Shown here piece after piece: positions 1 to 23,454 of a DNA stretch of 23,454 nucleotides. Below the pieces are notes generated by a model. The model did not search any database, was not told where the DNA came from, and saw nothing but the letters and a program-made list of their open reading frames with translations. Each line of letters begins with the position of its first letter. Position 1 is the first letter of the stretch. The translations under genes and the position numbers were made by a program. This DNA is from a virus, in IMG/VR virus record IMGVR_UViG_3300010210_000005, positions 1 through 23,454 of that record; one strand, given 5' to 3'.

Positions 1-20
1 GAATACTTTGAATTGAATAC
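1..20. repeat. Terminal 20-bp direct repeat, left copy
   Basis: The first 20 bases, GAATACTTTGAATTGAATAC, are identical to the last 20 bases of the window (23435-23454). The sequence is a doublet of the start-associated box found before many genes here, but this exact 20-mer was seen only at the two ends. If the ends join, the repeat would sit between the stop of the small HTH gene (31) and the start of the HTH gene at 23429, which matches the arrangement in other gaps. It could also be a contig break in a repeated motif. Confidence 0.8.
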
Positions 21-30
21 TTAAACCCTG

Positions 31-216
31 TTAAGGGCCATATTTTTTAATCAGTTTTTTAATTATTGGTTCCTCAAGTTGTGTTATTCTAGTTTCGCCG
101 TTTATTTTGTTGTGAAAAGTGGATTTACTCCACGGCAATTTTTTATAACAATCCTCTCTAAATGCCTTTTTTTGATCTGTTGTCAACGCATCATAAAAGG
201 GCTTTAAATCGTTCAT
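31..216 (-). CDS. Small helix-turn-helix DNA-binding protein, hypothetical
   Basis: This 61-residue basic protein has a central segment of HTH character (about residues 27-55, including WSKSTFHNKING). It resembles the short HTH proteins seen in Bacteroidota phages, but no named family was recognised. It lies beyond the terminator at 291-319, so it is probably transcribed from its own promoter in the AT-rich 217-290 stretch, where no clear -7 box was found. A small hairpin, CCCTTAACAGGG, overlaps its stop codon. No start-associated box precedes it. A regulatory role is inferred from the fold alone. If the molecule is circular, this gene lies directly upstream of the other HTH gene (23148-23429). 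Confidence 0.6.
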   Translation of the reverse strand: MNDLKPFYDALTTDQKKAFREDCYKKLPWSKSTFHNKINGETRITQLEEPIIKKLIKKYGP

Positions 217-290
217 AATCTTTTCGTTTTTGGGTGTATTTAGTTTTCATCATATAAAAATATATTTTTAAAATTAAATAGCTAGTGTTT

Positions 291-319
291 AAAGGGGGTT
301 ATTAATTCCCCCTTTTTTT
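291..319. terminator. Bidirectional intrinsic terminator after the lysis genes
   Basis: AAAGGGGG (291-298) pairs with CCCCCTTT (308-315) around a 9-nt loop. A run of seven T on the plus strand makes a strong plus-strand terminator. On the minus strand, the direction of the genes, only a short T tract follows. The minus-strand stem overlaps the stop codon of the last lysis-region gene, so it plausibly ends the late transcript and separates it from the HTH gene at 31-216. Confidence 0.7.
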
Positions 320-541
320 GAAAAATCTAAAACGTTTTTTTGTTTTAGTAGTGTTTTGCTCCTGTTTCACATTTGTAACAGTTGTATTGTCCACCTTATT
401 ATTTTGGCCCTTAGCTTTGAGCTTTTTATAGTTGTTAGTAACTGATAAATCCGGCTTATCCATTAAGGAATAAGCAAAAAAGCCAACCACTACCATAACG
501 ACGCTCCAAAGTGCAAAGCCTATTTTTTTTAGTAGTTCCAT
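302..541 (-). CDS. Single-pass membrane protein of the lysis region, possible spanin-like
   Basis: The 79-residue product has one N-terminal membrane segment (about residues 6-26), then a polar Asn/Thr/Lys-rich region and a basic tail. Its ATG overlaps the stop of the upstream holin-like gene (TAATG), implying translational coupling. Order is amidase, two-TM protein, this gene, terminator. A membrane-anchored protein with a polar extension at this position could be an inner-membrane spanin or a holin accessory. No outer-membrane spanin lipoprotein is present beside it, and there is no family match, so this is inference from position and topology. Confidence 0.7.
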   Translation of the reverse strand: MELLKKIGFALWSVVMVVVGFFAYSLMDKPDLSVTNNYKKLKAKGQNNKVDNTTVTNVKQEQNTTKTKKRFRFFKKRGN

Positions 542-738
542 TACCCCTCCTCATAAAATAAGTCAGAAATAAACGAACCAACGACCGAAAAGGCCAAGCC
601 TGTATATATTACCCACTCAATATTTTGAGTGGCCGCATAACCAGCGATAACAGCGCCCGCGCTTACTAATGCTTTTCCAATCCGCCGCGCTTTTTTGGGA
701 GTTGGCAAGTGCTCAGAGCCAAATTTTACCTTTTTCAT
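541..738 (-). CDS. Holin-like protein with two membrane segments
   Basis: The product has 65 residues from the start chosen here: a charged N terminus (PKKARRIG), two hydrophobic segments (about residues 20-36 and 41-57) joined by a short polar turn, and an acidic end. This layout is typical of small holins and common in Bacteroidota phages beside an amidase. The ATG at 738 is preferred over the one at 777 for two reasons. It overlaps the amidase stop as ATGA, and the start-associated box GTATTC lies 4 nt upstream, inside the last amidase codons. The likely role is inner-membrane permeabilisation that releases or activates the amidase; this is inferred from topology and neighbours. Confidence 0.75.
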   Translation of the reverse strand: MKKVKFGSEHLPTPKKARRIGKALVSAGAVIAGYAATQNIEWVIYTGLAFSVVGSFISDLFYEEG

Positions 739-1397
739 TTTTGAATACTTTTGAAGTGTTGAATAATATAATGACATGTTGCCTCTCCATGTACTGAGGC
801 AATTTGATTAACACCGCTTGAGGAACGCATAAAATCCAAATCCGTCGGATGGTCATAAAAAAAGTTTTCCGTTAGAATAGCCGGAGCCGTGGTGTGTTTT
901 AATATATAAAATTGACTCTCCTTGTCTGCGTCGCCGTCGCTCATGTCTTTCCGCATCCGGCCACATCTTAAATTTTTCCAAGCTTGGGCCGCGGTGTTAA
1001 AAAACGTTGTGGCTATGGCGTCGGCTTGCGTTTCTCCTACGGAAGTAAAAACCTCCCATCCGGTGCCTCCTCCGGCGTTGCCATGAATACTCACTAAAAA
1101 AACAAAATAGCCTTTTTTAGTGTAAGTTTCAGTTATTTTGTTGGCTATCTCGCACCGCATTGATAAAGGTATATCATCATCCTGAGGAACTAATAAAACG
1201 GACTCTATGCCTAAGCTGGTTAACATACCTTTATACAGGCGGGCAATGGTGCGGTTAAATTCCCATTCCATCAAAACAGGCATTCCCAAATTAAGGGGGG
1301 AACGTTTGCCCGCTGTGTCTTTTCCGTGCCCGTTGTCGATAATAACCAAAACAGGCATTTTTTTTAATATAATTTGTAAAGCTCTGTAATCAATCAT
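735..1397 (-). CDS. N-acetylmuramoyl-L-alanine amidase (Amidase_3-type endolysin)
   Basis: This 220-residue enzyme cleaves the amide bond between N-acetylmuramate and L-alanine of peptidoglycan, releasing progeny phage. Family motifs are visible: IDNGHG with zinc ligand His24, a Glu in the MEWEFNR stretch (44 or 46) as second ligand, SIHGNAG with His105 as third ligand, and LTENFF with catalytic Glu177. The catalytic domain fills the whole protein, and no cell-wall-binding domain or signal peptide is seen, so export to the periplasm probably needs a holin. It overlaps the upstream membrane/coiled-coil gene by 8 nt and the downstream holin-like gene by 4 nt. Met14 is an alternative start. Confidence 0.92.
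   Translation of the reverse strand: MIDYRALQIILKKMPVLVIIDNGHGKDTAGKRSPLNLGMPVLMEWEFNRTIARLYKGMLTSLGIESVLLVPQDDDIPLSMRCEIANKITETYTKKGYFVFLVSIHGNAGGGTGWEVFTSVGETQADAIATTFFNTAAQAWKNLRCGRMRKDMSDGDADKESQFYILKHTTAPAILTENFFYDHPTDLDFMRSSSGVNQIASVHGEATCHYIIQHFKSIQK
743..748 (-). promoter_or_regulatory. Start-associated box embedded in the amidase 3' end
   Basis: Coding-strand GTATTC lies 4 nt before the holin-like ATG at 738. It is inside the last amidase codons, where the reading frame gives KSIQK and then the stop. It is the only copy found without a second box and without an intergenic gap. Confidence 0.55.
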
Positions 1398-1713
1398 TGT
1401 TTTTTAATTGAGTTTGTAAACTGGCTATCCGCTCCCCGTGGGTGTCTAGCCTTTCATCATGTTTATCAAGCTTTCTAAAAATAACCCTTATGCTTTTCTC
1501 ATTGTCGCGGTTGCGCTCCTCCTGTGAGGAAACATGGCGATCTATTGAGGTGGCAATTTTAGTGATAGCTTGTAAAGCGTCGGAGTGCTTTTGGTCGTTT
1601 TTTTCAATGTATCGCTTTAACGCCCATATTAAAAGCGTGGAAATAATCCCAAACATTGTAATTAAAAACCATTGAGCAAATCCAGTAATTACCCAAGTTG
1701 TAGCCAATAGCAT
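1390..1713 (-). CDS. Membrane protein with C-terminal coiled coil, lysis region
   Basis: The 107-residue product has one long N-terminal hydrophobic segment (about residues 3-32), then a highly charged, heptad-like region (about 36-105, with repeated ERI/DERLDTHGERI patterns) predicted as coiled coil. The topology resembles the XhlA/DUF2730 type of phage membrane proteins in mirror order. It lies directly upstream of the amidase and overlaps both neighbours by a few bases (TAATG at its 5' end), so it belongs to the lysis operon. A role as holin partner or antiholin is possible; the sequence does not decide it. Confidence 0.75.
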   Translation of the reverse strand: MLLATTWVITGFAQWFLITMFGIISTLLIWALKRYIEKNDQKHSDALQAITKIATSIDRHVSSQEERNRDNEKSIRVIFRKLDKHDERLDTHGERIASLQTQLKNND

Positions 1714-2045
1714 TATTTTCCTTTTGCTGGCTTCTTTTGGGCTGGTTTAAGTGATTTGAAATACAAACTAATTAACTCGTTAACTTTTGGAGAAAATAAT
1801 TGAAAGTGTTGGGGTTGACTTGCCGCATTATCAATAAAACTAATAAGCTCGTCAAGTTGCTCCTCAGGAATGGTAATAGTTTTCCGGTCGTGGATTTGTT
1901 CTCCAATACGTGAAATATTAATAGAGGAGCCCTGCAAATACAATACATTGCCTAATGTGTTGGATAGCTCCGCACCTGTGGCAACTGTTTTTTTATCAAG
2001 GTCTAACACCTTGAAATCTTTAAAGTCGAATACTATTTTACTCAT
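1713..2045 (-). CDS. Conserved-type phage protein of unknown function, first gene of the lysis operon
   Basis: The 110-residue soluble protein has no membrane segment. Its N terminus (KIVFDFKDFKVLDLDKKTV) looks like mixed beta structure, and it ends in a Lys/Ala/Pro-rich tail. No family was recognised. It is the first cistron after the candidate promoter and operator at 2129-2168. Its leader is the most elaborate in the window: box, hairpin, box, ATG. That placement suggests expression of the lysis genes is gated here. The start is supported by a GTATTC box 5 nt upstream. Confidence 0.75.
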   Translation of the reverse strand: MSKIVFDFKDFKVLDLDKKTVATGAELSNTLGNVLYLQGSSINISRIGEQIHDRKTITIPEEQLDELISFIDNAASQPQHFQLFSPKVNELISLYFKSLKPAQKKPAKGK

Positions 2046-2050
2046 GACTT

Positions 2051-2115
2051 GAATACTTTTAATTTGCTCAGATACAGTTGAATAGTCTGTATCTGAGCGT
2101 TTGAATACTTTGAAT
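2051..2115 (-). repeat. Start-associated boxes flanking the leader hairpin
   Basis: GTATTC occurs at 2051-2056, 5 nt before the ATG at 2045, and again at 2103-2108. The two copies are separated by a perfect hairpin (2066-2098) rather than by the usual short AT-rich spacer. The distal copy is in the extended ATTCAAAGTATTCAAA form found at the other sites. Confidence 0.8.
2066..2098 (-). promoter_or_regulatory. 12-bp leader hairpin with a box-like loop
   Basis: Arms 2066-2077 (plus-strand GCTCAGATACAG) and 2087-2098 are exact reverse complements. The 9-nt loop reads ACTATTCAA on the coding strand, one mismatch from AGTATTCAA, the repeated box. No T run follows on the minus strand, so it does not look like a terminator. 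It lies in the predicted leader of the lysis operon and is better explained as an RNA control element or a protein-binding dyad. Confidence 0.75.
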
Positions 2116-2128
2116 AAATTGAGAGGGA

Positions 2129-2160
2129 CAAAAGAAACAATAAAATTTTAATAGTCCAAA
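2129..2160 (-). promoter_or_regulatory. Candidate Bacteroidota-type promoter for the lysis operon
   Basis: On the minus strand TTTG (2157-2160) is followed after 20 nt by TTCTTTTG (2129-2136), a near match to the Bacteroidota -33 TTTG / -7 TAnnTTTG pattern with one mismatch in the -7 box. The predicted start near 2122 would give a leader of about 77 nt holding both boxes and the hairpin. It overlaps the operator-like dyad. Confidence 0.45.
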
Positions 2161-2168
2161 CTTTGGAC
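2154..2168. promoter_or_regulatory. Operator-like dyad, copy 1 (GTCCAAACTTTGGAC)
   Basis: This 15-bp perfect dyad has arms of 7 bp and one central base. It shares the form GTCCAA-N3-TTGGAC with the dyad at 20273-20287. The TTTG of its right half on the minus strand doubles as the candidate -33 element. This placement fits a repressor or activator site. Confidence 0.6.
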
Positions 2169-2185
2169 AAATATTAATTAATTTT

Positions 2186-2488
2186 TTATTGTAGGTAATT
2201 TTCCGGAGCGTCAAAAATTTGTTTTAAGTCCGCTTTCATTTTAGCGCTCAATTCATCAAAATTATCCTCCATTGTCTCGGTTGTGCTGTGGCTAAAATTA
2301 CTCCCATCCTGAGTATGCATGTGTTTAACTATCCGGCTGGTCTGGCCGCCCTCTGTTTCAATGCGGGCCTCTCCGCTAACTTGGCCGCCCTCTAGTTTTC
2401 CATCAATCAGCTGATAACGATAAAATAATGAATAACCATTAAATAACTCGGTTAACTCAATGGTTTCCGTTTTACTCTTTAACTCCAT
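2186..2488 (-). CDS. Hypothetical phage protein
   Basis: The 100-residue, acidic, soluble protein has a probable beta-rich N-terminal half (about residues 5-62) and a helical C terminus (about 75-95). No membrane segment, signal peptide or recognised motif is seen. It is the last gene of the tail block, separated from the lysis operon by a 140-bp regulatory gap. Its position after the baseplate and fiber genes suggests a virion accessory or assembly role, but nothing in the sequence proves it. Confidence 0.65.
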   Translation of the reverse strand: MELKSKTETIELTELFNGYSLFYRYQLIDGKLEGGQVSGEARIETEGGQTSRIVKHMHTQDGSNFSHSTTETMEDNFDELSAKMKADLKQIFDAPENYLQ

Positions 2489-2499
2489 AAGTTTTATTT

Positions 2500-2700
2500 T
2501 TAATTTGGTTCAACTTCTTTTAAATGGTCGTACTCTCTGTTTTTCCGGCCCCTGCCGTTTTCATCGTCAACGGAGCCACCGCCGCCCCCGCCGGAAAGTA
2601 TAACATCTTTTGTTTTACTTTTTTTATTGCGGCGTCTAATTAAATTATAAACCACCCATCCGGCAAAGCCTAAGGCTAAAATCAAAGCAAATGTTTTCAT
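2500..2700 (-). CDS. Small single-pass membrane protein with polyglycine linker
   Basis: The 66-residue product has an N-terminal hydrophobic helix (about residues 3-20), a basic stretch (RRRNKKSKTK), a run of six glycines (about 38-43) and a charged C terminus. No lipobox is present, so it looks like a membrane anchor with a cytoplasmic basic flank and a flexible tail. The function is unknown. It sits between the baseplate-type protein and the hypothetical gene at 2186, with short gaps on both sides. Confidence 0.6.
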   Translation of the reverse strand: MKTFALILALGFAGWVVYNLIRRRNKKSKTKDVILSGGGGGGSVDDENGRGRKNREYDHLKEVEPN

Positions 2701-2733
2701 AATAATATAATATTTAGAGAAATAAATTGTTTT

Positions 2734-3711
2734 TTACTGTCCTCCGGCTTGGGCCATTGAAATCCAAGTATAACTATCTCTTAAAACTCCGTTTAAATAT
2801 AATTTACTTGTGTACTGTGTATTTTCATCAAGTATTATAAAATTCTCAGTAAAAATCTGATCTGTACCGGATAACATTATAGTATAATCTTTATCCATAA
2901 ATCCACCGACCGCGTTGTCTGTTCTGTAAATTTCAACGGTTATAGTGCCCGTATAACTCACGGTGTTAACTCTTGTAGTTACTACGTTTGTCGATACGTC
3001 CCAAGTGGTTGTAAATTTATTAACATATGGATTAGCTGGCGTTGCATTTAAAGGCACATCAACCCAAAACGGATTATCCGCGGTTGTTTTCCGCGGCAAA
3101 GCATAACGGCCATTCGCAACGTTAGCCGCTCCCCATGCCTTATATGTATCAGTAAGAAAGAATTTTAATGTTAATTCTGTTGAGGATAAACTTGAAAAAT
3201 CAACATCAATGCCGCCGCCTAAACTCTCCTCACTCGCCCAATCGATTAAACCACTATTCCCGTACACTTCAACGCCAAGCAATAAGGTTCCGTATCCGGT
3301 TAAATCCAATAGGCTAACTTGCCAGCCGTCAGAGGTGGCAATTAATGGCATAAATGTATAGGCTCTTTTATCAAATGCATCCGGAGGGTTTCCAATAGAT
3401 AACGGTATTTGGGCCGCGTGGTCGTAACCCCTAAAATGGCCTAAATCATAAGGAGAGCCGGAGCCGCCCAAAGGTTTTAAATACGCCCATAATTGAGTAT
3501 CAGTATCATTGTAAACGGGTATTGATAGTGAGTAATCATTACCCGTACCAAGCCACCACTCAGCGGAGGTGGTTTTTTCATACCTTACAGGCTTTTTTTT
3601 ACTCCACGGGTTGACATTAGACGAAACGCATAGAGTACCTAAATCATTACTACTATGATTTAATGCCGCTTTAACTGCGTCAATTGTTAAATTTGTTTCA
3701 TTTAATGGCAT
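2734..3711 (-). CDS. Tail tip / baseplate-associated protein, hypothetical
   Basis: The 325-residue protein is rich in aromatic residues, Gly, Thr and Asn, as in beta-structured virion proteins. An early segment, NVNPWSKKKPVRY (about residues 32-44), resembles a motif I associate with tail-tip proteins of Bacteroidota phages. The C-terminal third (about 225-320) looks like one or two Ig-like beta-sandwich domains (alternating TxT strands, ending in LNGVLRDSYTW). It starts 4 nt after the fiber stop and is probably co-expressed with it. No enzymatic motif is seen. Possible roles are receptor binding, fiber attachment or baseplate decoration. Confidence 0.7.
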   Translation of the reverse strand: MPLNETNLTIDAVKAALNHSSNDLGTLCVSSNVNPWSKKKPVRYEKTTSAEWWLGTGNDYSLSIPVYNDTDTQLWAYLKPLGGSGSPYDLGHFRGYDHAAQIPLSIGNPPDAFDKRAYTFMPLIATSDGWQVSLLDLTGYGTLLLGVEVYGNSGLIDWASEESLGGGIDVDFSSLSSTELTLKFFLTDTYKAWGAANVANGRYALPRKTTADNPFWVDVPLNATPANPYVNKFTTTWDVSTNVVTTRVNTVSYTGTITVEIYRTDNAVGGFMDKDYTIMLSGTDQIFTENFIILDENTQYTSKLYLNGVLRDSYTWISMAQAGGQ

Positions 3712-3715
3712 AAGA

Positions 3716-6295: not shown

Positions 6296-6297
6296 TT

Positions 6298-8478: not shown

Positions 8479-8480
8479 AA

Positions 8481-12867: not shown

Positions 12868-12872
12868 AAAAT

Positions 12873-12907
12873 GAATACTTTAAAATGAATGAATGAATAC
12901 TTTGAAT
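12873..12907 (-). repeat. Start-associated boxes before the tail tube gene
   Basis: GTATTC copies at 12873-12878 (5 nt from ATG) and 12895-12900, with ATTC-rich sequence between. They fill the 43-bp gap after the tail terminator gene, leaving little room for a separate promoter. Confidence 0.8.
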
Positions 12908-12910
12908 TAA

Positions 12911-14667: not shown

Positions 14668-14680
14668 TACTCAGGATTAT

Positions 14681-14705
14681 AAAACGGAGCGACCGGAGCC
14701 GCTCC
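14681..14705 (-). terminator. Terminator-like hairpin, copy 2 of a 25-bp repeat
   Basis: On the minus strand GGAGCG pairs with CGCTCC around 8 nt, followed by GTTTTAT. The 25 bases are identical to 15144-15168, so the gene at 14719 is bracketed by two copies. The weaker T run here suggests partial termination or an RNA-processing or stability signal. Confidence 0.5.
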
Positions 14706-14718
14706 AAAAAATTAATTA

Positions 14719-15099: not shown

Positions 15100-15110
15100 T
15101 GTCTTTGTTA

Positions 15111-15140
15111 ATAATGAATAATGAATAATGAATAATGAAT
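15111..15140 (-). repeat. 7-bp tandem repeat in the leader of the HhH gene
   Basis: Plus-strand ATAATGA is repeated four times plus two bases; the coding strand reads as repeated ATTCATT. The shared ATTCA core suggests a degenerate form of the start-associated sequence, but the GTATTC box itself is absent and the spacing to ATG is longer (11 nt). Confidence 0.75.
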
Positions 15141-15143
15141 TAA

Positions 15144-15168
15144 AAAACGGAGCGACCGGAGCCGCTCC
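15144..15168 (-). terminator. Terminator-like hairpin after the capsid gene, copy 1
   Basis: GGAGCG and CGCTCC pair around an 8-nt loop and are followed on the minus strand by GTTTTTT, an intrinsic-terminator layout. It lies between the capsid stop (15197) and the next gene (15099). Partial termination here would raise capsid mRNA over downstream genes, and downstream transcription must still read through. It is identical over 25 bp to 14681-14705. Confidence 0.6.
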
Positions 15169-15196
15169 GCTCCCTTAAACCAAGTAAACCCTAAAA

Positions 15197-16531
15197 CTAC
15201 TGTACAACCAGTTTTTTAATTGGGGAATGGCCCGCATTAATCGGCTTGCCGTCAAATCTCATAAATAAGTTATAAGCCACTTGGTTTTTTGAGCGTAAAA
15301 ACTCGCGGTAAACATGCATTGTTTTAACGCGGCGAATAACATAATTTTCAAGGTCGCCAAATACTAAAGGCACGTTTCCGGTGGCTACATCATCCAAATC
15401 CGGAGTGATAACAATAGGATAGCCTAGCAACGTTTCAGGCGAACCGTCGCGTAAACTTTTTTGATATAAATAATTCCCCTCATTATCCTTTAATTTTCGT
15501 AAGGCCGTGCGGGTTTTATCGTTCATCATAAAACATGCATTTTTACGGCTCTCAGCTCCAACACTACCCTCCAAATCTAGTACATCATCAGCGGCCAAAA
15601 CGCCCACCGCGTCGGTGGTTTTTCCGGTTTCAACGGTTTTTATTCCGGTTGGCTTTTCGTTTCCGTCGGCCTGTACTGCATCTTTCATAAATTTACGCAC
15701 AATTGCCCGCGGCATTTCTTTAACTAGCTTGCCCTCAATATCATACTCAGCGTCATCTATTAACGTCCTATCTATTGTAATGTCCCCCGTTGTGTAATCG
15801 TATGCGTTAAGGGTTATGGAGTCCATGACTGGCTCTAATCCATCGCCCGAATCGGCCCCCTTAGCAACAATTTTCCCCTCCATATCGCGGGCGTTCCATG
15901 TTGGAATTTTAATAGGGTTTCCGGTGCCTGTTTCCTCCTTGCCGCATTTCTCCATAAAATCATTAGCCTTATACAACGCCTCTATAATTTTACTCCTAAA
16001 ATCTGTTGCAACGGTGGCCCCTGCGTTAGTGTCGTAATCAATAAGGCGATGTTCTTCATCGCTAAGCGCCCGCTCTCCATAACGTAAATACTTGTCAAAT
16101 GCCGCGCGGTACTCCTCAGCGCCTTGCTTTTCATCTAATTTACGTTGTTGCTCATCTTCTTTTTTCTTGCGGGCTCCCACGCCTAATAATTGCGCTTGCC
16201 TCAAGCTTTCTAAATTACGGAGCTCCTCCCTAATCTCGTTTGAGCGCTTTTGTAGGTTTTGCCAATCCTCATCATCTTTTAAGGCTCTTTTCTCCTCTTT
16301 ACAAAGGGTAAAACGGGCCTCCATTTTATCGGCAATGTCGCGGCCCTCCTCTTGTAGTGCCTTAATTTGGTCGTCTACATTGGTTAATAATGCCCCAGCG
16401 GCGGCGCTCATCACTAAGCCTCCGGCGGCTAATTGTGGGGTAAGGTCAAAAACTCCCATTAAATCAAGTCCGGCCATTATTAAGGCAAACGCCAACATAA
16501 AGCCCAACCCATGCAAAATAATTTTTTTCAT
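15197..16531 (-). CDS. Major capsid protein, HK97 fold, with unusual hydrophobic N terminus
   Basis: The 444-residue precursor follows the prohead protease. Residues about 52-125 form a charged coiled coil (the delta/scaffold domain), and the HK97-type body follows from about 160. Body markers include IPTWNARD, the VKEMPRAIVRKFM helix, NACFMMNDKTRTALRKL, LLGYPIVITPDLDD and VPLVFGDLENYVIRR. Before the scaffold, residues about 4-21 and 30-49 are two hydrophobic stretches that look membrane-spanning. This is atypical for the family. The long start is supported by a GTATTC box 5 nt before the ATG; Met41 would remove most of the hydrophobic part. The protease should cleave the scaffold during maturation. 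Confidence 0.92.
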   Translation of the reverse strand: MKKIILHGLGFMLAFALIMAGLDLMGVFDLTPQLAAGGLVMSAAAGALLTNVDDQIKALQEEGRDIADKMEARFTLCKEEKRALKDDEDWQNLQKRSNEIREELRNLESLRQAQLLGVGARKKKEDEQQRKLDEKQGAEEYRAAFDKYLRYGERALSDEEHRLIDYDTNAGATVATDFRSKIIEALYKANDFMEKCGKEETGTGNPIKIPTWNARDMEGKIVAKGADSGDGLEPVMDSITLNAYDYTTGDITIDRTLIDDAEYDIEGKLVKEMPRAIVRKFMKDAVQADGNEKPTGIKTVETGKTTDAVGVLAADDVLDLEGSVGAESRKNACFMMNDKTRTALRKLKDNEGNYLYQKSLRDGSPETLLGYPIVITPDLDDVATGNVPLVFGDLENYVIRRVKTMHVYREFLRSKNQVAYNLFMRFDGKPINAGHSPIKKLVVQ

Positions 16532-16536
16532 CTTTT

Positions 16537-16568
16537 GAATACTTTTTGAATGAATGAATACTTTGAAT
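16537..16568 (-). repeat. Start-associated boxes before the capsid gene
   Basis: GTATTC copies at 16537-16542 (5 nt from ATG) and 16556-16561 fill the 39-bp gap between protease stop and capsid start. The gap is too short for a full promoter plus leader, which argues that the boxes act on RNA. Confidence 0.85.
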
Positions 16569-16570
16569 TA

Positions 16571-17221: not shown

Positions 17222-18491
17222 TTATTTTTGTGGTGGTATTAACAGGAAAGCGGAGTTTTGCGGCGTCGCCTCCCATTTTGAAATAATCTAAATATTCGCG
17301 GGCCTCATCGCTTGAAAGTATGCCGGAATTAACCAGCTTAGACAAGTACTCAGCAACGCTTTTCATGTCGCCCTTAATTAACTCCGTTAAATCATGACGT
17401 ATTACATGGCTCCCTTTTTCCTTAAGCTCGAAAAGGCTATGTTCATACGACGCCTCAATACGACGGCACCAAATGGCCACGGTATCAAGTACCCACTCAA
17501 TATTTTGATGTTCAATATTATTATTAGTTGAGCGGCCAAGCTCAAATAATTTGTGAGGTGGAATACCTAAAAAACGGCCTATTTCAGTAATGGAGAATTG
17601 CCGACTTTGTAAGAGTTGGGCGGCCTCTGCTAATAGTTCAAATTGATGATATTTGGCACCCGCTGGAATACCTCCGGTTTTGCCCGTTTTTTGCATCCCC
17701 GCGCTTTTTTCGTTCCAAGTATCTAAGTAAGATTTGATTTTATCAGGGTTTGAGAATTTCTCAGGAAATTCAATAACCCCGCCCATGTGTGCATTATTCT
17801 TAAAAAAATCGCTTGTAAATCGGTCTAGTGTAAGCCCCTGCTCTCCTACGCGCTTGGCAAATCTGAGCGGACTAATGCCCTTTATACCATCAAACCCCAT
17901 GCCCGCAACATGCAATATATTTAACTGTGTATCAGGCTTGCCATTGATAAAGTAGTAAATATTATAATCTCGCTCATCATCCACTAAATAAGGGGAGACA
18001 ATCTCCGGAGCAACACGGCGGAGCCCTATTGTTTGGCCTCTCAGGTCGGTTATTTTACGCGCGTAACTGTTACCATCCGACCAAATTAAGTCCATCATCA
18101 TAGACTCACGGAAATTAAACGCCGGAGTAATATGATTAGTTGAAACATTAAACAACGACTCAAAACGGTGTTTACGGTCTATTATTCTGTCCCCGTCGGC
18201 GTCCACTTTGTACACATGTACAGGGAGGCGGGCAATGGTTCCGGCCAGTAGGTTAACGCCGCGATAAAGGGCGGATAATTGCAAACCTGTTTCTTTTGTG
18301 AGTGTTTCACCCGTGTACATCTCAAAGAAATCATTAAAGCTCATCACCGACCCATTAAAGCCCACGGCTCCGGTCAATGAATCCCCGTTAATCATTCGCG
18401 TTTCCTCGGAGGTACTTTCCGGAGCGGGCGAAGCGGCGGAGCGCTTTTCTGCTCCGCCTGTTCCTAACCAATTAAATAAACCCCCTAGCAT
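17190..18491 (-). CDS. Portal protein, HK97 family
   Basis: The 433-residue protein forms the dodecameric ring through which DNA enters the head. Typical HK97-portal phrases are visible: ALYRGVNLLAGTIARLPVHVYK (about 74-95), MMMDLIWSDGNSYARK, a GMGFDGIKGISPLRFAK segment (about 200), the FSITEIGRFLGIPPHKLFELGRSTNNNIEHQN clip/stem region (about 300-332), and a C-terminal wing with LTELIKGDMKSVAEYLSKLVNSGILSSDEARE. The start is supported by a GTATTC box 2 nt upstream, the shortest spacing in the window. The usual upstream neighbour, large terminase, is absent; the small terminase ends 80 bp before it. Confidence 0.94.
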   Translation of the reverse strand: MLGGLFNWLGTGGAEKRSAASPAPESTSEETRMINGDSLTGAVGFNGSVMSFNDFFEMYTGETLTKETGLQLSALYRGVNLLAGTIARLPVHVYKVDADGDRIIDRKHRFESLFNVSTNHITPAFNFRESMMMDLIWSDGNSYARKITDLRGQTIGLRRVAPEIVSPYLVDDERDYNIYYFINGKPDTQLNILHVAGMGFDGIKGISPLRFAKRVGEQGLTLDRFTSDFFKNNAHMGGVIEFPEKFSNPDKIKSYLDTWNEKSAGMQKTGKTGGIPAGAKYHQFELLAEAAQLLQSRQFSITEIGRFLGIPPHKLFELGRSTNNNIEHQNIEWVLDTVAIWCRRIEASYEHSLFELKEKGSHVIRHDLTELIKGDMKSVAEYLSKLVNSGILSSDEAREYLDYFKMGGDAAKLRFPVNTTTKINADNDGKEED

Positions 18492-18493
18492 TT

Positions 18494-18525
18494 GAATACT
18501 TTTGAATGTTTGAATACTTTGAATA
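18494..18525 (-). repeat. Start-associated boxes between small terminase and portal
   Basis: GTATTC copies at 18494-18499 (2 nt from ATG) and 18512-18517 lie in the 80-bp gap where the large terminase gene would be expected. The rest of the gap holds a short GC-rich stretch and AT-rich sequence with no ORF. Confidence 0.8.
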
Positions 18526-18571
18526 AAGCCCAGCGGGAACGGGGCAATTATTGATTAAATTTTATTTTACA

Positions 18572-19111
18572 TTAATCCGGCCCGTTATTATTTTGCCTTT
18601 TCTTCATCATATTAATCAACTCATCCGCGTTATCCTCATTATTGACAGCTGAGCGAAACAATGAGGCGCGGGCGGATGGTGTAAGCCCAAACTCCGTTAA
18701 CATGCGGAATAATCGTTTTGCTGAATCGCTCATAATATCATATTCCGGACGTTTTTTAATTTGTTTTCCATCCCTTGAAATATTTGTATAAGTGGTGCCT
18801 CTTACCTGTTTTGAGTCGGGGTCTTTTGAGTTAATAAATTTGTATGCATCGTACCAGCTTTGGAAAGCCTCAGAAACTAAACATATTGCCACTTCGTCAA
18901 GTTGGGTAATAATTTTATTAGAAATTAAAAGAGAGCTTAATTGATCGTGAAATTTTCGGGCCTGACCTTTTAAAAAAGTGGGCGTTTTCAACTCCTCAAG
19001 CTTTTCCATGTTAAGCCTATCTTTGTGCCCCTCTCGGCTCTCCTTTAATGTGCCTCTCCTTTTCTTAACTTCCTCAGGTAATGACTTCGCCCCCTTGCTT
19101 GTTAATGTCAT
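18572..19111 (-). CDS. Small terminase subunit (P27 family)
   Basis: The 179-residue protein recognises phage DNA for packaging. It matches the P27-type pattern: a basic N-terminal tail (GTLKESREGHKDRLN), then PTFLKGQARKFHDQLSSLLI, helices with a QLDEVAICLVSEAFQSWYDAY segment, a conserved loop (GTTYTNISRDGKQIKKRPEYDI), and a C-terminal SAKRLFRMLTEFGLTPSARASL, the most typical family signature. It directly follows the lipoprotein gene (4-nt gap). It would normally be followed by the large terminase, but here portal comes next. Confidence 0.9.
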   Translation of the reverse strand: MTLTSKGAKSLPEEVKKRRGTLKESREGHKDRLNMEKLEELKTPTFLKGQARKFHDQLSSLLISNKIITQLDEVAICLVSEAFQSWYDAYKFINSKDPDSKQVRGTTYTNISRDGKQIKKRPEYDIMSDSAKRLFRMLTEFGLTPSARASLFRSAVNNEDNADELINMMKKRQNNNGPD

Positions 19112-19115
19112 ATAA

Positions 19116-19478
19116 TCACTCTTTTAAAATTAATCTTATACGGGTAATAACATCATACGGGCCCACAAGTGTTAAAGCTATTCTTTTTTCTCCGTAAATA
19201 CTATCCTCAACAATATCACGGGCCGGAATCCATGCGCCCTCATAGAAACCCTCGTAAAAATCGGAAAAATCCACATTTGTAAATTTTATTTCCTCCTTTT
19301 CATTGTTTAAAATGAAAGTTGCCGTACGGGTAAGCCTTACCTCTTTCAAAACGTTTTGCGTAATATCTAAGAGCTCATACTTATCAAAATATTGCTCCTG
19401 AGCTGGGGCGGGGGTTTCCTCTTTATCGCATCCAGCAAGCAAAACAACGGCAACAAATAAAAATGCAATCTTTTTCAT
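19116..19478 (-). CDS. Phage-encoded lipoprotein, probably surface-exposed
   Basis: The 120-residue protein starts from ATG 19478, preferred over 19502 because it gives a clean signal peptide: MKKIAF, a hydrophobic core, and lipobox LLAGC with Cys17. The residues after Cys are D-K-E-E-T, which fit C-X-K-(D/E)2-X, the lipoprotein export signal known from Bacteroidota that directs lipoproteins to the cell surface. The mature part is a Pro/Ala linker (about 22-30) and a small beta-rich domain. No known domain was recognised. It sits between an unknown gene and the small terminase. Receptor blocking or superinfection exclusion, as with the T5 Llp lipoprotein, is a reasonable guess but unproven. 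Confidence 0.8.
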   Translation of the reverse strand: MKKIAFLFVAVVLLAGCDKEETPAPAQEQYFDKYELLDITQNVLKEVRLTRTATFILNNEKEEIKFTNVDFSDFYEGFYEGAWIPARDIVEDSIYGEKRIALTLVGPYDVITRIRLILKE

Positions 19479-19494
19479 AATAAAAATATATAGG

Positions 19495-19779
19495 TTAGAC
19501 ATTTAAAAGCGCCTTAAATTTAGCCCTTAAATCGTTTGCACCCTCATTATATGCGGCTTTCTTATTTTGAGAAACAATAAAATTAATGGCTGTATATAAT
19601 GAGCTATTATCAAAACCTTTAAACTCAGGCCCGCTTTTAAATCGCGGGCATCTGAAAAGTAATTGATTTTCGGGGTTGTTCTCACGTTCATAATGTGTAA
19701 ATAATTCTATAATATCCGCGAACGTTTCCGGCTTTAGAATAAAATCTTTAAGGCGGAGGTATGAATTAGACTGGCTCAT
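19495..19779 (-). CDS. Hypothetical protein
   Basis: The 94-residue protein has a helical N terminus (LRLKDFILKPETFADIIELFTHYE), a central basic turn (RCPRFKSGPEFKGF) and a helical end (ANDLRAKFKALLNV). No membrane segment and no recognised family. It overlaps the DUF4494-like gene by 14 nt, and its end overlaps only the extended lipoprotein start, so it is part of the same operon. The function is unknown; genes just before small terminase are often packaging accessories or host-takeover proteins. Confidence 0.7.
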   Translation of the reverse strand: MSQSNSYLRLKDFILKPETFADIIELFTHYERENNPENQLLFRCPRFKSGPEFKGFDNSSLYTAINFIVSQNKKAAYNEGANDLRAKFKALLNV

Positions 19780-20215
19780 CTGTTAGCTCCTCCTTAAGAA
19801 TTTCAAACATTACCTCAATTATGCGGCTTTGGCTTACTTTCTTTACTGTGTAATCAATAGTAAAATCTTTACTCCATTGTTTAAATACATCAATAGCCTC
19901 CTTTGGAGAATTTGCAGCAATCAAACAGCGCAAAGAATGAGTTTTTAATTTTCCGTTGTCGTCCTCTCCGACATAAGAGGCCGTAAGGTTTTGAAAATAA
20001 TCTTTTTCCTCTAAACAAATAATTTCCTCAAGGTTGCACGGCGTAATATTTAAAAGCCGCCATTCTTTAAATGAGTTTAACTCCGCTAAGCGGTGGGCCT
20101 GTTCCTCAGCTTCGCCAAAAGTTGCCGCACTACAAAGGTAATGCTCATTTTGTACCTTGTCTTTTCCGGTCATATCATCAATAACCGACCTTTTAATTTT
20201 AATCTCAAATAACAT
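19766..20215 (-). CDS. DUF4494-like protein
   Basis: The 149-residue protein is the first gene after the candidate promoter and dyad at 20247-20287. The opening (FEIKIKRSVIDDMTGKDKVQNEHYLCSAATFGEAEEQAHRL) matches what I recall of DUF4494, a family seen mostly in Bacteroidota genomes and their mobile elements. A second repeat-like half (CLIAANSPKEAIDVFKQWSKDFTIDYTV) suggests two related alpha/beta units. Its biochemical role is unknown. The start is supported by a GTATTC box 5 nt upstream. Confidence 0.8.
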   Translation of the reverse strand: MLFEIKIKRSVIDDMTGKDKVQNEHYLCSAATFGEAEEQAHRLAELNSFKEWRLLNITPCNLEEIICLEEKDYFQNLTASYVGEDDNGKLKTHSLRCLIAANSPKEAIDVFKQWSKDFTIDYTVKKVSQSRIIEVMFEILKEELTDEPV

Positions 20216-20220
20216 GTTTT

Positions 20221-20239
20221 GAATACTTTGAATGAATAC
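20221..20239 (-). repeat. Start-associated boxes before the DUF4494-like gene
   Basis: GTATTC copies at 20221-20226 (5 nt from ATG) and 20234-20239. With the predicted transcription start near 20241, almost the whole leader of about 26 nt would consist of the two boxes. Confidence 0.85.
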
Positions 20240-20246
20240 TAAAATA

Positions 20247-20278
20247 TAAATATACTCTTTATTTTTTTAACCGTCCAA
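20247..20278 (-). promoter_or_regulatory. Candidate Bacteroidota-type promoter for the packaging/structural operon
   Basis: On the minus strand TTG (20276-20278) is followed after 21 nt by TATATTTA (20247-20254), one mismatch from TAnnTTTG. The region between is A-rich. The -33 element lies inside the dyad at 20273-20287. A terminator just upstream (20361-20388) supports an operon boundary here. Confidence 0.5.
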
Positions 20279-20287
20279 GTATTGGAC
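20273..20287. promoter_or_regulatory. Operator-like dyad, copy 2 (GTCCAAGTATTGGAC)
   Basis: GTCCAA and TTGGAC are perfect inverted arms around three bases, the same form as 2154-2168. In both copies the TTG of the right arm (minus strand) aligns with the candidate -33 element. The plus strand has a T5 run after it, so a weak plus-strand terminator is possible, but no plus-strand gene needs one. Confidence 0.6.
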
Positions 20288-20360
20288 TTTTTAACCAACT
20301 CAATTAATTTAACAATAATACACCTCTCAAATGGAGGAATGAGGCTCCGAAACTGCACAC

Positions 20361-20388
20361 AAAAAAATGAAACCACGGGGACGGTTCC
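20361..20388 (-). terminator. Intrinsic terminator ending the HNH/recombinase operon
   Basis: On the minus strand GGAACC pairs with GGTTTC (one G-T pair) around GTCCCCGT, and the stem is followed by ATTTTTTT. It lies downstream of the Cys-rich and small basic genes and upstream of the DUF4494-like gene's promoter. The surrounding 20216-20409 stretch holds only this terminator, the dyad, the promoter and the boxes. Confidence 0.65.
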
Positions 20389-20409
20389 GGAGCGGAGCCC
20401 TTTAAGGAA

Positions 20410-20604
20410 TTACCCCCCTATCCCCCTTTGCTTCTTAAAATATTGTCTCACAATCTTTTTGGTAAATAATCGGCCACGTTTAGAGCAAAAGGCCGTAGAC
20501 ATGCGGACCCGTAAATATAAGCTCATACTTAGATGTTCAATAAATACATTCATTCTCGGACATCTCCCCTCGTTATGCTTTCGTTTATTATTGTTTTTAG
20601 GCAT
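20410..20604 (-). CDS. Small basic hypothetical protein
   Basis: This 64-codon ORF encodes a strongly basic product (KKNNKRKHNE at the start, KRGRLFTKKIVRQYFKKQRG at the end) with two cysteines and a central helical stretch. The ATG is preceded by an A-rich sequence (CTTTAAAAA), as expected of Bacteroidota starts, but has no GTATTC box. It fits between the Cys-rich gene and a terminator. No family was recognised, and the opposite-strand ORF there looks worse. A nucleic-acid-binding role is possible from charge alone. Confidence 0.45.
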   Translation of the reverse strand: MPKNNNKRKHNEGRCPRMNVFIEHLSMSLYLRVRMSTAFCSKRGRLFTKKIVRQYFKKQRGIGG

Positions 20605-20664
20605 TTTTTAAAGTGTATTATTGTTTAGTTGATTGATTGCAAACAACTGTATTTATTAACTATT

Positions 20665-21057
20665 TTATTGTCTTAATTGAGCTCTATTAAAGTTGTATAG
20701 TTTGCCGCAATTACTACACAATACCTCGGCTTTTACTTCATGAGCTTTACGGCATTTGCAAAGATTTTCTTTATTCTTCCTTAATAATATATTGCAATGT
20801 TTATCTATATCATTAAAACCCCTTAGAGAGCGTGCCGCGTCGGTGTGTTCAATTGAATTAAAACGCTTATTGTTTGCATCTGTTATTTTAAAGACCGGAT
20901 AACGCAACTCATTGAAACCATAGCGGGCGTTAACATGTTCATTAAAATCATTATAATCCTTAGCTATTACAATGATTCTCCTAAGTGGCTTTGTTGGGGC
21001 TTGGTTAACTTTCCAGCTCCGGCCTTTTGTTGTTGGTATGTATTTATTTTTTTTCAT
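20665..21057 (-). CDS. Cys-rich, putative zinc-binding protein
   Basis: The product has 130 residues from ATG 21057, preferred because it overlaps the 59-codon gene upstream by only 14 nt; ATG 21084 would add nine residues. The body is basic and mixed alpha/beta (RRIIVIAKDYNDFNEHVNARYGFNELRYPVF). The C terminus holds CKC and CSNCGKLYNF, a probable zinc ribbon or treble-clef finger. A nucleic-acid-binding or recombination-related role is plausible beside the recombinase and a second zinc-ribbon gene, but no family was recognised. Confidence 0.65.
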   Translation of the reverse strand: MKKNKYIPTTKGRSWKVNQAPTKPLRRIIVIAKDYNDFNEHVNARYGFNELRYPVFKITDANNKRFNSIEHTDAARSLRGFNDIDKHCNILLRKNKENLCKCRKAHEVKAEVLCSNCGKLYNFNRAQLRQ

Positions 21058-21223
21058 TTTTCTTGCAGTTATGGCATAATACATTTATATACTCCTTTGA
21101 TCTATCAGGCTTTAAATGGTGTCTATTGCATCCGTGACATAAATAATAATAAATGTTTTTAGGTTCCTCCTTTTCTTTGTTCGTGGACTTTATAGCAAAG
21201 CCTTTCCTCATTTCGTTTGCCAT
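21044..21223 (-). CDS. 59-residue zinc-ribbon microprotein
   Basis: Reading the minus strand from ATG 21223 gives an uninterrupted 59-codon frame ending in TAA at 21044. The protein starts MANEMRKGFAIKS, is Lys/Glu-rich, and carries LCHGC (Cys29, Cys32) and LCHNC (Cys50, Cys53), a CxxC-x17-CxxC zinc ribbon. The coding potential is convincing because both CxxC pairs are in frame, the gap upstream is just 2 nt after the clamp-motif gene, and the 3' end overlaps the next Cys-rich gene. It probably binds nucleic acid or protein. It is easily missed because it is shorter than common length cut-offs. Confidence 0.65.
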   Translation of the reverse strand: MANEMRKGFAIKSTNKEKEEPKNIYYYLCHGCNRHHLKPDRSKEYINVLCHNCKKNEKK

Positions 21224-21225
21224 AA

Positions 21226-21816
21226 TTAGAAAAGGCTCATTTGTTGGGCGTCGGTGGTTTGGTTCCCTTTTCTCTTATCAAAAGGATAATTAACAGGGGG
21301 GCGCAACTGCTGGGGCGCTGGTTCCTCCTCAGGTTCCGGAGCTGTACAACTAACGGGGGCCGCTGGTTCCTTAATTAGTTCCTCCTCAGGTTCCGGAGCT
21401 GTGTAATTGACGGCGGCGTCATGCTCTGCCTCTGTTACGCTGTGAGGTATTGCAGAAATATTTTGCTTATATGCTGGGGCACCTATGGCGGCGGCTTTTT
21501 GGGCGTTTGTTCCGGTTACAGGCTGGCCGCTGTAATACTCACTATAATAAACATTCATAGGAGAAAGCCCATAATCCTTAAGCGTGGCCCGTTGCTTAAA
21601 TCTCTCATATTCTACGGAGGAACTCTCTATTAATTCAATAGATGGGTTTTTACATGCCTCAAGGAAACCCTCAAGGCGGGGCAATGTCCAATTAAGGAAA
21701 GTATTAGGCCAATGCCTTAGGCTGGTTGCAACTACTGAGCCAGCGCGGAAATAAAGTAATAAATCAAAGATAGGCGGATTTGAAACCCGCACGGTTGAAA
21801 AGTGTTTTAAGTCCAT
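21226..21816 (-). CDS. Unknown protein with C-terminal sliding-clamp-type motif
   Basis: In this 196-residue protein, residues 1-95 look globular (IFDLLLYFRAGSVVATSLRHW, SMNVYYSEYY-like end). Residues about 96-180 are disordered and contain an imperfect tandem repeat with TAPEPEEE at 139-146 and 158-165; the DNA repeat is 25 identical bases at 21321-21345 and 21378-21402. The last five residues, QMSLF, match the bacterial beta-clamp-binding consensus QL(S/D)LF at an exposed C terminus. A role in replication, repair or host-clamp takeover is inferred. The start is supported by a GTATTC box 5 nt upstream. Confidence 0.7.
   Translation of the reverse strand: MDLKHFSTVRVSNPPIFDLLLYFRAGSVVATSLRHWPNTFLNWTLPRLEGFLEACKNPSIELIESSSVEYERFKQRATLKDYGLSPMNVYYSEYYSGQPVTGTNAQKAAAIGAPAYKQNISAIPHSVTEAEHDAAVNYTAPEPEEELIKEPAAPVSCTAPEPEEEPAPQQLRPPVNYPFDKRKGNQTTDAQQMSLF
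21321..21402 (-). repeat. In-frame 25-bp repeat, two copies
   Basis: Twenty-five identical bases occur at 21321-21345 and 21378-21402, 57 bp (19 codons) apart and in frame. They encode the duplicated Thr-Ala-Pro-Glu-Pro-Glu-Glu-Glu segment of the clamp-motif protein and provide a site for slippage or length variation. Confidence 0.8.
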
Positions 21817-21821
21817 AATTT

Positions 21822-21844
21822 GAATACTTTGAATGATTGAATAC
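21822..21844 (-). repeat. Start-associated boxes before the clamp-motif gene
   Basis: GTATTC copies at 21822-21827 (5 nt from ATG) and 21839-21844 fill the 32-bp gap after the recombinase stop. No promoter fits in this gap. Confidence 0.85.
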
Positions 21845-21848
21845 GATG

Positions 21849-22784
21849 TTATTTTAACAGCTGGGCCAATGCTTTTCCAGCTTTATTCTGATAGTGTTTA
21901 AGCTCCTCCGCCATACGTGTATATATTTGTGTTATTTCGGTTGAGCTATGCCCTAAGTATAGCGATACATCAAGCAAATCAAACCCATCCATTATAAGCA
22001 ACACCCCCACGGTATGGCGGAGGCTATGGGCTGTTATTCGCTTTGAGTCTATACCAATGCGGCGGAGGCGGCCCTTAACCATGCGGCTTATGTTATCGCT
22101 GGTTAATCGATTGCCTTGATATGACTTTGCAAGGGCATGAGAGACAAAAAGGGGCTTATTTGGTTCAATATCTCCCCTCATTGATATATAATGCATAACA
22201 GCGGAGAAAATCTCATCTGTTACGGCTACAAAACTATTTTTATAAAGCTCTCCTTTTCTTTGGCACATTATCCCTCTAATGAGGCCCTCCGGAGTATCTT
22301 TATTAATTAAATCTTCATAATTAATACGGGCCACCTCAATAGTGCGGAGGCCACGCATACCCAAAAGGCATAATATAGCCTTATCGCGGGAACCTATAAG
22401 CGTTTTATTGTCCGTTGAGTTGATTAAGTCTTTAAGCTGGGCCCGTGTTAATACGTCCTTTTTATAGCCTTTGTATTTTGGCACGTTGGGAATACCTCTC
22501 CCAATATCCCGCCCCCAGCCTTGCTCATCCAGCCATTTATAAAATTTCTTAACTGTAATAAGGTAAGATAGCGCGGTTGTATCGCTTTTACTTTCAATTA
22601 AATGAGCTCTGTATTGGAGGAGCTCCGCCTTACCAAAATTATAAACGCCGGAGGTTAAGCCAGTAGCCCAGCGGAAATATAAAATTAAATGCCGTTTATA
22701 GGCTCGTTTTGAGGCTGGTTGTACAGATTGAACGCTTAAAAATTGTTTAATCAATGTACTTATAGGGGTCGAAACTGTTATCAT
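21849..22784 (-). CDS. Tyrosine recombinase / integrase (XerC/D-like)
   Basis: The product has 311 residues from ATG 22784, chosen over 22829 because it reduces overlap with the HNH gene from 83 to 38 nt and begins at a normal core-binding domain (MITVSTPISTLIKQFLSV). Numbered from 22829, catalytic residues are all present: Arg162 in RTIEV, Lys192 in the beta-hairpin, His268-x-x-Arg271 in HSLRH, His294 in LGHSS, and Tyr303 in IYTRM. It should cut and rejoin DNA at an attachment or resolution site. No att core was identified beside it. An integrase between HNH and small terminase, in the same operon, is unusual; dimer resolution or site-specific inversion are alternatives. Confidence 0.92.
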   Translation of the reverse strand: MITVSTPISTLIKQFLSVQSVQPASKRAYKRHLILYFRWATGLTSGVYNFGKAELLQYRAHLIESKSDTTALSYLITVKKFYKWLDEQGWGRDIGRGIPNVPKYKGYKKDVLTRAQLKDLINSTDNKTLIGSRDKAILCLLGMRGLRTIEVARINYEDLINKDTPEGLIRGIMCQRKGELYKNSFVAVTDEIFSAVMHYISMRGDIEPNKPLFVSHALAKSYQGNRLTSDNISRMVKGRLRRIGIDSKRITAHSLRHTVGVLLIMDGFDLLDVSLYLGHSSTEITQIYTRMAEELKHYQNKAGKALAQLLK

Positions 22785-23172
22785 TGTTTTTCTGTTTGCT
22801 TTGCTTATACCCGTGGCTCTCTTTACCACTCTTTCGATTATGGTGTCGTGAGTACATGCTTTGCAGATTATCCATATCTAACGGCTCTCCCCATTGGCCG
22901 CCCTCTGTGTCGTATGGGTTAGCTGGGTTAATCCGCTGTATATGGTCTACCATGTTGGCACCGTATGGCATAAGAGAGGTTTTACACTCCTCACACTCAC
23001 AAAACGGGTTAAGCGTTAATTTTTCAGCTCTTAAACTTCGCCAAGCCGGAGACTTATAAAACCAGTTGTTTTTTGCGCGTCTATTTTTAAAAGAGTCCTT
23101 TTTTTCGGGCTCATAACTCCGGCGGCGGGGTGGTGGAATGTATGCCACTATAACAAGCCTTTTGAGTTGCAA
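22747..23172 (-). CDS. HNH endonuclease
   Basis: The 141-residue protein has a basic N-terminal tail (about 1-40) and a canonical HNH fold: FYKSPAWRSLRAEKL, then Cys58, Cys60 and Cys63 (probable zinc ligands), the DHI core at 76-78 with first His77, and MDNLQSMYSRHHNRKSGKE with Asn102 and the final His at 110/111. HNH proteins encoded near small terminase assist the terminase in DNA packaging in many cos-type phages. Here the recombinase and several genes intervene. It overlaps the HTH gene by 25 nt and the recombinase by 38 nt. Confidence 0.9.
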   Translation of the reverse strand: MQLKRLVIVAYIPPPRRRSYEPEKKDSFKNRRAKNNWFYKSPAWRSLRAEKLTLNPFCECEECKTSLMPYGANMVDHIQRINPANPYDTEGGQWGEPLDMDNLQSMYSRHHNRKSGKESHGYKQSKQKNNDNSFDPYKYID

Positions 23173-23429
23173 TACTTAAGAAAATCCACAACATCGCAAC
23201 TAAGGCGGTTATTATCCTTAGTCATTGGAATATCTTTTTTAATGCGCTCAAGGTGTCGGCGTGTAATGTTTAACAGCTTGCAAACAGATTTTGAATCTAG
23301 GCGGTTTTGAGTGTCCGCCAATTTATAGGCCATCATTGCTAAATGTCCGTTATTAAGACAATTAACTAATGTATTTACAGTTTCGCTTAGGGAGTCAATT
23401 TTTAACTCCAATCTTTCGGGGGTGGTCAT
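23148..23429 (-). CDS. HTH DNA-binding protein, excisionase-like
   Basis: The 93-residue protein has an N-terminal coiled-coil-like helix (RLELKIDSLSETVNTLVNCL) for oligomerisation, followed by a winged-helix/MerR-like domain (about 47-90; SVCKLLNITRRHLERIKKD, then a wing and DVVDFLKYC). It is of the type annotated in Bacteroidota mobile elements as HTH or excisionase beside a tyrosine recombinase, and its operon includes the recombinase two genes later. It could direct excision or regulate genes. The start is supported by a GTATTC box 5 nt upstream. Confidence 0.78.
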   Translation of the reverse strand: MTTPERLELKIDSLSETVNTLVNCLNNGHLAMMAYKLADTQNRLDSKSVCKLLNITRRHLERIKKDIPMTKDNNRLSCDVVDFLKYCNSKGLL

Positions 23430-23434
23430 AATTT

Positions 23435-23454
23435 GAATACTTTGAATTGAATAC
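23435..23454. repeat. Terminal 20-bp direct repeat, right copy, and start-associated boxes
   Basis: The last 20 bases equal the first 20 of the window. GTATTC copies at 23435-23440 (5 nt from the HTH gene's ATG) and 23449-23454 make this a normal start-associated doublet as well. The window ends here, so what lies upstream of the HTH gene is unknown unless the molecule is circular. Confidence 0.8.

Follow-up and report, generated by a model that had tools for sequence, protein, structure and literature searches.

What does a six-letter sequence do when it stands, always in the same orientation and at a nearly constant distance, in front of the start codons of several genes of one phage? This question is raised by the IMG/VR virus record IMGVR_UViG_3300010210_000005, a stretch of 23,454 bp that was analysed over its whole length (the window) and that carries nearly all of its genes on the minus strand. 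The sequence is GTATTC, referred to here as the box, and genes whose ATG directly follows it are referred to as box starts. The GTATTC tag before eight genes is real, and judging from its placement it probably controls where and when protein synthesis begins. The explanation that we favour, to which we give a probability of about 0.5, is that the boxes are a phage-specific start-associated element acting in the mRNA.

Occurrence and placement of the box

The window holds 27 copies of GTATTC against 10.9 expected, a number attained in none of 100 shuffles, and 24 of the 27 are located on the minus (coding) strand. The distances to the start codon given in an earlier note on this DNA were all exact: the box lies precisely 5 nt before the ATG at 2045, 12867, 16531, 20215, 21816 and 23429, 4 nt before the ATG at 738 and 2 nt before that at 18491. 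Of the 24 coding-strand copies, eight therefore precede a gene start by 2–5 nt, six of them by exactly 5 nt, while 100,000 random placements yielded at most four and two, respectively. For 15 of the 24, a start follows within 60 nt, and the copies outside the arrays are scattered in a manner consistent with chance. An unbiased 6-mer search near the starts of this window ranked GTATTC and its overlapping neighbours first.

A second GTATTC was observed upstream at seven of the eight box starts, at 13, 14, 17, 18, 19 and 22 nt (start to start) and at 52 nt for gene 2045; gene 738 has a single box. The 13–22 bp that had been given for most second copies thus applies to six of them. The gap between paired boxes ranges from 7 to 16 nt, with 46 nt at 2045, and is not in helical phase. 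The motif is non-palindromic, and the array copies, as had been reported, are all on the coding strand, in the orientation of their own gene. The intergenic gaps before the capsid gene (39 nt, 16532–16570) and the clamp-motif gene (32 nt, 21817–21848), which had been described as holding little except boxes, consist almost wholly of the box array.

The box starts amount to eight of about 34 genes, so that the "many genes" of the earlier note is narrowed to this set, in which all starts are ATG and most genes lead a module. The modules headed in this way run from the DUF4494 protein gene to the small terminase, from portal to protease, from capsid to connectors, and through the tail. The further box starts are the gene before a 107-amino-acid (aa) protein and the amidase, the holin-like gene 738, the first gene past the joint of the record, and gene 21816. 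Genes 15099, 14667, 2700, 20604 and 216 have true intergenic gaps and no box; the box is therefore not merely a feature of intergenic gaps. The locations of the boxes and associated features are as follows.

1–20, minus strand: box pair GTATTCAATTCAAAGTATTC at the left end of the record, identical to 23435–23454
743–748, minus strand: single box, 4 nt before ATG 738, in the 3' end of the amidase frame
2051–2056, minus strand: proximal box, 5 nt before ATG 2045
2066–2098, minus strand: predicted 12-bp RNA hairpin between the boxes of gene 2045, with a 9-nt box-like loop, ACUAUUCAA
2103–2108, minus strand: upstream box of gene 2045
12873–12878, minus strand: proximal box, 5 nt before ATG 12867 (major tail protein)
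12895–12900, minus strand: upstream box of the major tail protein gene
16537–16542, minus strand: proximal box, 5 nt before ATG 16531 (HK97-type major capsid protein)
16556–16561, minus strand: upstream box of the capsid gene
18494–18499, minus strand: proximal box, 2 nt before ATG 18491 (portal)
18512–18517, minus strand: upstream box of the portal gene
20221–20226, minus strand: proximal box, 5 nt before ATG 20215 (DUF4494 protein)
20234–20239, minus strand: upstream box of the DUF4494 gene
21822–21827, minus strand: proximal box, 5 nt before ATG 21816 (196-aa protein with a C-terminal QMSLF clamp-type motif)
21839–21844, minus strand: upstream box of gene 21816
23435–23440, minus strand: proximal box, 5 nt before ATG 23429 (93-aa protein)
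23449–23454, minus strand: upstream box of gene 23429, at the right end of the record

Box anatomy and predicted features of the mRNA

When the eight starts were aligned on the proximal box, the core AAAGTATTCA was invariant in all eight, and the 45 nt upstream of the proximal box showed no other strongly conserved block at a constant distance. The full form, ATTCAAAGTATTCA, contains a direct repeat of ATTCA and is found at one box of most pairs, namely as the proximal copy at 20215, 21816 and 23429 and as the upstream copy at 2045, 12867, 16531 and 18491. Relative to the start codon, AAAGUAUUCA is located at about −14 to −5. At the non-box starts, which lack GTATTC, positions −14 to −10 are rich in A, while the box starts retain AAA at −14 to −12. 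In Flavobacterium johnsoniae, adenines at −12 and −13 promote initiation (PMC6847099).

The A-rich non-box starts are also one of the signs that the host is probably a Bacteroidota bacterium. The 726-aa tail protein of the phage points in the same direction: its sole relatives in the phage collection belong to Bacteroides and Flavobacterium phages and one unassigned fecal phage, and its family is also present in prophages of one Bacteroidota family.

Two sites are informative about the level at which the box may act. The box of gene 738 is located inside the amidase frame (ATT CAA CAC TTC AAA AGT ATT CAA AAA TGA, ending in HFKSIQK and the stop codon), and the start of gene 738 overlaps the amidase stop (ATGA), leaving no intergenic region. 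At 2045, 33 of the 46 nt between the two boxes form the predicted 12-bp hairpin (z −4.35, equalled in 0 of 200 shuffles). With this hairpin folded away, 13 unpaired nt are left between the boxes, which falls within the 7–16 range of the other pairs and suggests that the modelled fold restores the box-to-box distance in the RNA. In most box regions, the predicted folding was no stronger than in shuffled sequences.

Proposed role at translation initiation

A role in RNA is favoured by several observations. The distance to the ATG is tight (5, 5, 5, 5, 5, 5, 4, 2), whereas the gap between boxes is loose and unphased; the boxes have one orientation, no symmetry, and neither room for nor a match to a bipartite promoter; and one box lies within the amidase frame, while a hairpin would restore the box spacing at another site.

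In the proposed mechanism, AAAGUAUUCA at the first gene of most modules would lie inside the mRNA stretch covered by the 30S subunit at initiation, with the second copy a short and flexible distance upstream. An RNA-binding factor of the phage or the host would recognise the paired GUAUUC sites and control 30S access, so that translation of the modules would be switched in concert. By itself, the AAA part would aid initiation, since initiation in Bacteroidota favours adenines at −12/−13. The box, its spacing and orientation, the missing bipartite promoter and the box within a reading frame are observed, and the hairpin is a predicted fold; action in RNA, the existence of the factor and the choice between repression and activation are inferred. 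For a site under the 30S footprint, repression is somewhat more likely than activation.

Promoter, operator and pairing tests

The Bacteroidota −7 sequence TAnnTTTG was absent within 215 nt upstream of every box start, and no −33 element accompanied the boxes; the coding strand as a whole holds only one TAnnTTTG with TTTG/TTG about 19–21 nt upstream. The number of sigma-70-like promoters equalled that in shuffles, and these were discarded as candidates. The non-palindromic box and the seven unphased spacings (13, 14, 17, 18, 19, 22 and 52 nt) do not fit a dimeric DNA operator. An antisense RNA encoded in the window was rejected, as there are just three plus-strand GTATTC copies, scattered. Rfam gave no match.

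The earlier note had proposed 16S rRNA near positions 1372–1378 as a partner of the box. The 7-nt match to GTATTCA exists, and a Bacteroidota 16S does contain TGAATAC, but when the 16-nt consensus was shuffled, 39% of the versions matched 16S over 7 nt or more. As the conserved flanks of the box do not pair with 16S either, this partner is not supported.

A perfect palindrome, GTCCAANNNTTGGAC, was identified at 2154–2168 and 20273–20287, which is 109 and 58 nt upstream of the box starts 2045 and 20215 and thus upstream of two of the eight. The intergenic gaps that hold them, one copy each, are the two longest, at 140 and 194 nt, and in both the box is still located at the ATG. The palindrome does not occur in the two nearest relatives, L029 and L203, and its only other copies in the fetched loci are coding. 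The palindromes are likely operator or activator sites, and they are better candidates for a DNA operator than the boxes.

Relatives of the phage

The nearest relative was L029 (IMG/VR 3300031933_000154), with 36% identity in the portal, 32% in the capsid, 39% in the protease and 34% in a connector; L203 is its near twin, and gene order is common to both and to this phage. Neither is a close sister and neither has boxes. The capsid protein (15197–16531) begins with a hydrophobic stretch followed by a scaffold-like region, an arrangement common to L029 and L203.

Scans of IMG/VR and GTDB contigs for exact box pairs gave isolated coincidences only, mostly coding. Searching 395 Bacteroidota genomes for ATTCAAAGTATTCA gave isolated matches, and those that were read lacked the box-to-ATG arrangement. 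A blastn search of one array against phages produced nothing better than E 0.07. One candidate, ATTCAAAGTATTCAAAGTATTCA in a 405-kb phage (L238), was dismissed because it sits at the coding end of a gene with collagen-like repeats. Exact-pattern scans are blind to a diverged box, whereas the unbiased 6-mer search is not tied to the box sequence; in the relatives, the top start-associated k-mers were Shine-Dalgarno-like, A/T-rich of host type, or weak. As no genome searched carried the box, the element is either recent or has other carriers outside these collections.

A separate observation concerns TTTAAA/TTAAAA, which are over-represented 9–11 nt before starts in four Bacteroidota phages or prophages (L203, L260, L262 and L026). 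This excess is perhaps a general preference of the phylum in the initiation region.

Record ends, terminase and other gene content

The record encodes an HK97-type siphophage gene set, comprising small terminase, portal, protease, capsid, connectors, tail tube, tape measure, fibre, amidase and tyrosine integrase. It has no large terminase gene, whereas L029 and L203 have small and large terminase genes before the portal. In this phage, only an 80-nt gap with a box pair (18492–18571) separates the small terminase gene from the portal gene; at the equivalent position, L029 and L203 hold the large terminase and small genes. The ends of the record, 1–20 and 23435–23454, are an identical 20-bp box-pair repeat, which may reflect a circular genome or an assembly break at the repeat. 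More generally, the genome may be incomplete, or the ends and the terminase deletion may have arisen by recombination or assembly at repeats. Exact internal repeats of 24–25 bp were passed, so a simple collapse at a 20-bp repeat is not obvious. The existence of the boxes is independent of the completeness of the record.

Several other features were recorded. The product of 21226–21816 carries its C-terminal QMSLF, resembling a sliding-clamp-binding motif, after a proline/glutamate-rich repeat. The 93-aa protein of gene 23429 gave a helix-turn-helix match only below the Pfam cut-off. Between the DUF4494 gene and the small terminase, 19116–19502 encodes a small predicted lipoprotein, possibly a superinfection-exclusion protein. 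A 25-bp sequence, GGAGCGGCTCCGGTCGCTCCGTTTT, forms a strong terminator-like hairpin, with copies at 15142–15175 (after the capsid gene) and 14685–14706 (after the next gene). Tandem ATTCATT 7-mers are located at 15110–15141, upstream of the box-less gene 15099.

Alternative explanations

The earlier note had read the fixed distance to the start codon as a sign of translation. A start role in RNA is indeed the best fit, but the distance does not decide the matter, as the −7 element of a leaderless mRNA would sit identically. In that case, the box would be a core promoter element (−7/−10-like) of phage-specific transcription producing leaderless or near-leaderless mRNAs, with the promoter-to-transcription start site (TSS) distance fixing the ATG spacing. 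This would account for the constant 5 nt, for the sufficiency of a single box at 738 and for the boxes standing mostly at module heads. The probable −7 elements of F. johnsoniae end 4–5 nt before the TSS (PMC6847099), which would place +1 at the A of the ATG, and leaderless phage transcripts have been predicted in cluster O mycobacteriophages (PMC4351075). However, TAnnTTTG, a −33 element and any second block at a fixed distance are all missing, the TSS would fall inside or at the codon where the box is 2 nt (18491) or 4 nt (738) away, and both the second box at its variable distance and the hairpin are left unexplained. Furthermore, 87% of the predicted F. johnsoniae transcripts have leaders longer than 10 nt (PMC6847099), and neither a sigma factor nor an RNA polymerase was recognised in the record. 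We consider this explanation unlikely. Slightly less likely again is that the boxes are duplex-DNA sites of a phage regulator at module heads, serving as a stoperator-like roadblock or repressor site, and close to the ATG only because the gaps are short. Many near-identical, paired copies at module heads would suit such sites, and in L5-like phages the 13-bp stoperators act in transcription (PMC3203893). Yet the spacing to the ATG is far tighter than that between boxes, the box-to-box distances are off the DNA helix, the box is still right at the ATG in the 140- and 194-nt gaps, and a genuine palindrome exists separately.

A host-type explanation has a low probability: the box would be a strong initiation region, unstructured and A-rich, repeated through shared descent of the modules and needing no special factor. 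AAA at −14 to −12 fits Bacteroidota preferences and most box regions lack structure beyond that of shuffles, but the non-A part, GTATTC, is invariant in 8 of 8 and absent from other starts, and the second copy at a variable distance is not explained. The least probable of the alternatives, by a little, is that the boxes are linkers at module boundaries, kept or spread by homologous recombination without a direct role in expression. They do lie mostly at such boundaries, the large terminase is absent exactly at the portal box, both record ends are identical box pairs, and gene loss through repeats has been put forward for cluster O phages (PMC4351075). Recombination needs neither a fixed 5-nt distance to the ATG nor a box inside the amidase frame, though, and the absent terminase and the ends may stem from incomplete assembly. 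Against the mRNA element that we favour stand, besides the equal distance expected of a leaderless −7 element, the following: the window yielded neither a trans-acting factor nor a complementary RNA, the hairpin argument concerns one site only and was noticed after the fact, and the box was found neither in the relatives reached through portal, capsid, protease and connector searches nor in the Bacteroidota prophages reached through the capsid profile and PHROG 30639.

Comparison with known start-associated sequences

Start-associated sequences (SAS) of cluster K mycobacteriophages follow the 13-bp consensus GGGATAGGAGCCC, which has a Shine-Dalgarno core (Pope et al. 2011, PMC3203893). They are located about 3–9 nt from the start codon, mostly ATG, with a linked inverted repeat, the extended SAS (ESAS), in about half; they occur only in the half of the genome with the non-structural genes, they are conserved throughout the cluster, and a role in initiation has been proposed (PMC3203893). 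The boxes resemble them in being short, asymmetric, multi-copy repeats near the start, oriented with the gene and sometimes accompanied by an upstream element. Their position, 2–5 nt before an ATG in 8 of 8, also agrees, with 18491 (2 nt) just under the published range. Unlike the cluster K sequences, the box core AAAGTATTCA has no Shine-Dalgarno core, boxes also precede the portal, capsid and tail tube genes, and the element is found in one record only, not conserved across the relatives found. The palindrome of this phage is upstream of two of the eight box starts, at 58–109 nt.

Ten start-proximal repeats with a linked upstream motif have been described as SAS/ESAS in Microbacterium cluster EF phages (PMC7302621). 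The EF consensus, GGGAAAGGACCCC, coincides with the ribosome-binding site and shows complementarity to the end of the 16S rRNA, in an actinobacterial host (PMC7302621). The layout is the same as in our phage, whose box lacks the Shine-Dalgarno core. The EF repeats occur in another host genus, so the start-associated kind recurs; cluster K remains the nearest parallel, as the earlier note held, whereas the novelty that it suggested does not extend to the kind itself, already published for clusters K and EF. In phage Adephagia, ESAS have been read as SigA-like promoters with inverted repeats, and SAS were left without an assigned role (PMC11373665). The start-proximal repeat plus upstream inverted repeat is comparable to box plus GTCCAANNNTTGGAC at 2045 and 20215; unlike in Adephagia, promoter hexamers were not recognised here, and six of the eight box starts lack the palindrome.

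Translational control by CsrA/RsmA uses dual sites, one in the start region and a second at a flexible distance, one of which may lie in a hairpin loop. The boxes share the start-region site, the flexible second site and possibly the site in a hairpin loop. They do not fit control of the CsrA type itself, as the core has no GGA motif; no CsrA relative was recognised among the families scanned. On its sequence, the box would work like an SAS, but it is not a member of the cluster K or EF families. It is possible, though doubtful, that paired AAAGUAUUCA sites form the phage's own start code, read by a dedicated RNA-binding factor that would switch modules at initiation in a largely Shine-Dalgarno-free host.

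The question of what phage SAS do dates from 2011. The same layout, with no Shine-Dalgarno core and in a host that rarely uses such pairing, would make a start signal separable from ordinary ribosome binding, a separation that the cluster K case cannot make. The boxes also provide a natural spacing series in a short, mutable element, with 2, 4 and 5 nt to the start and 7–46 nt between copies.

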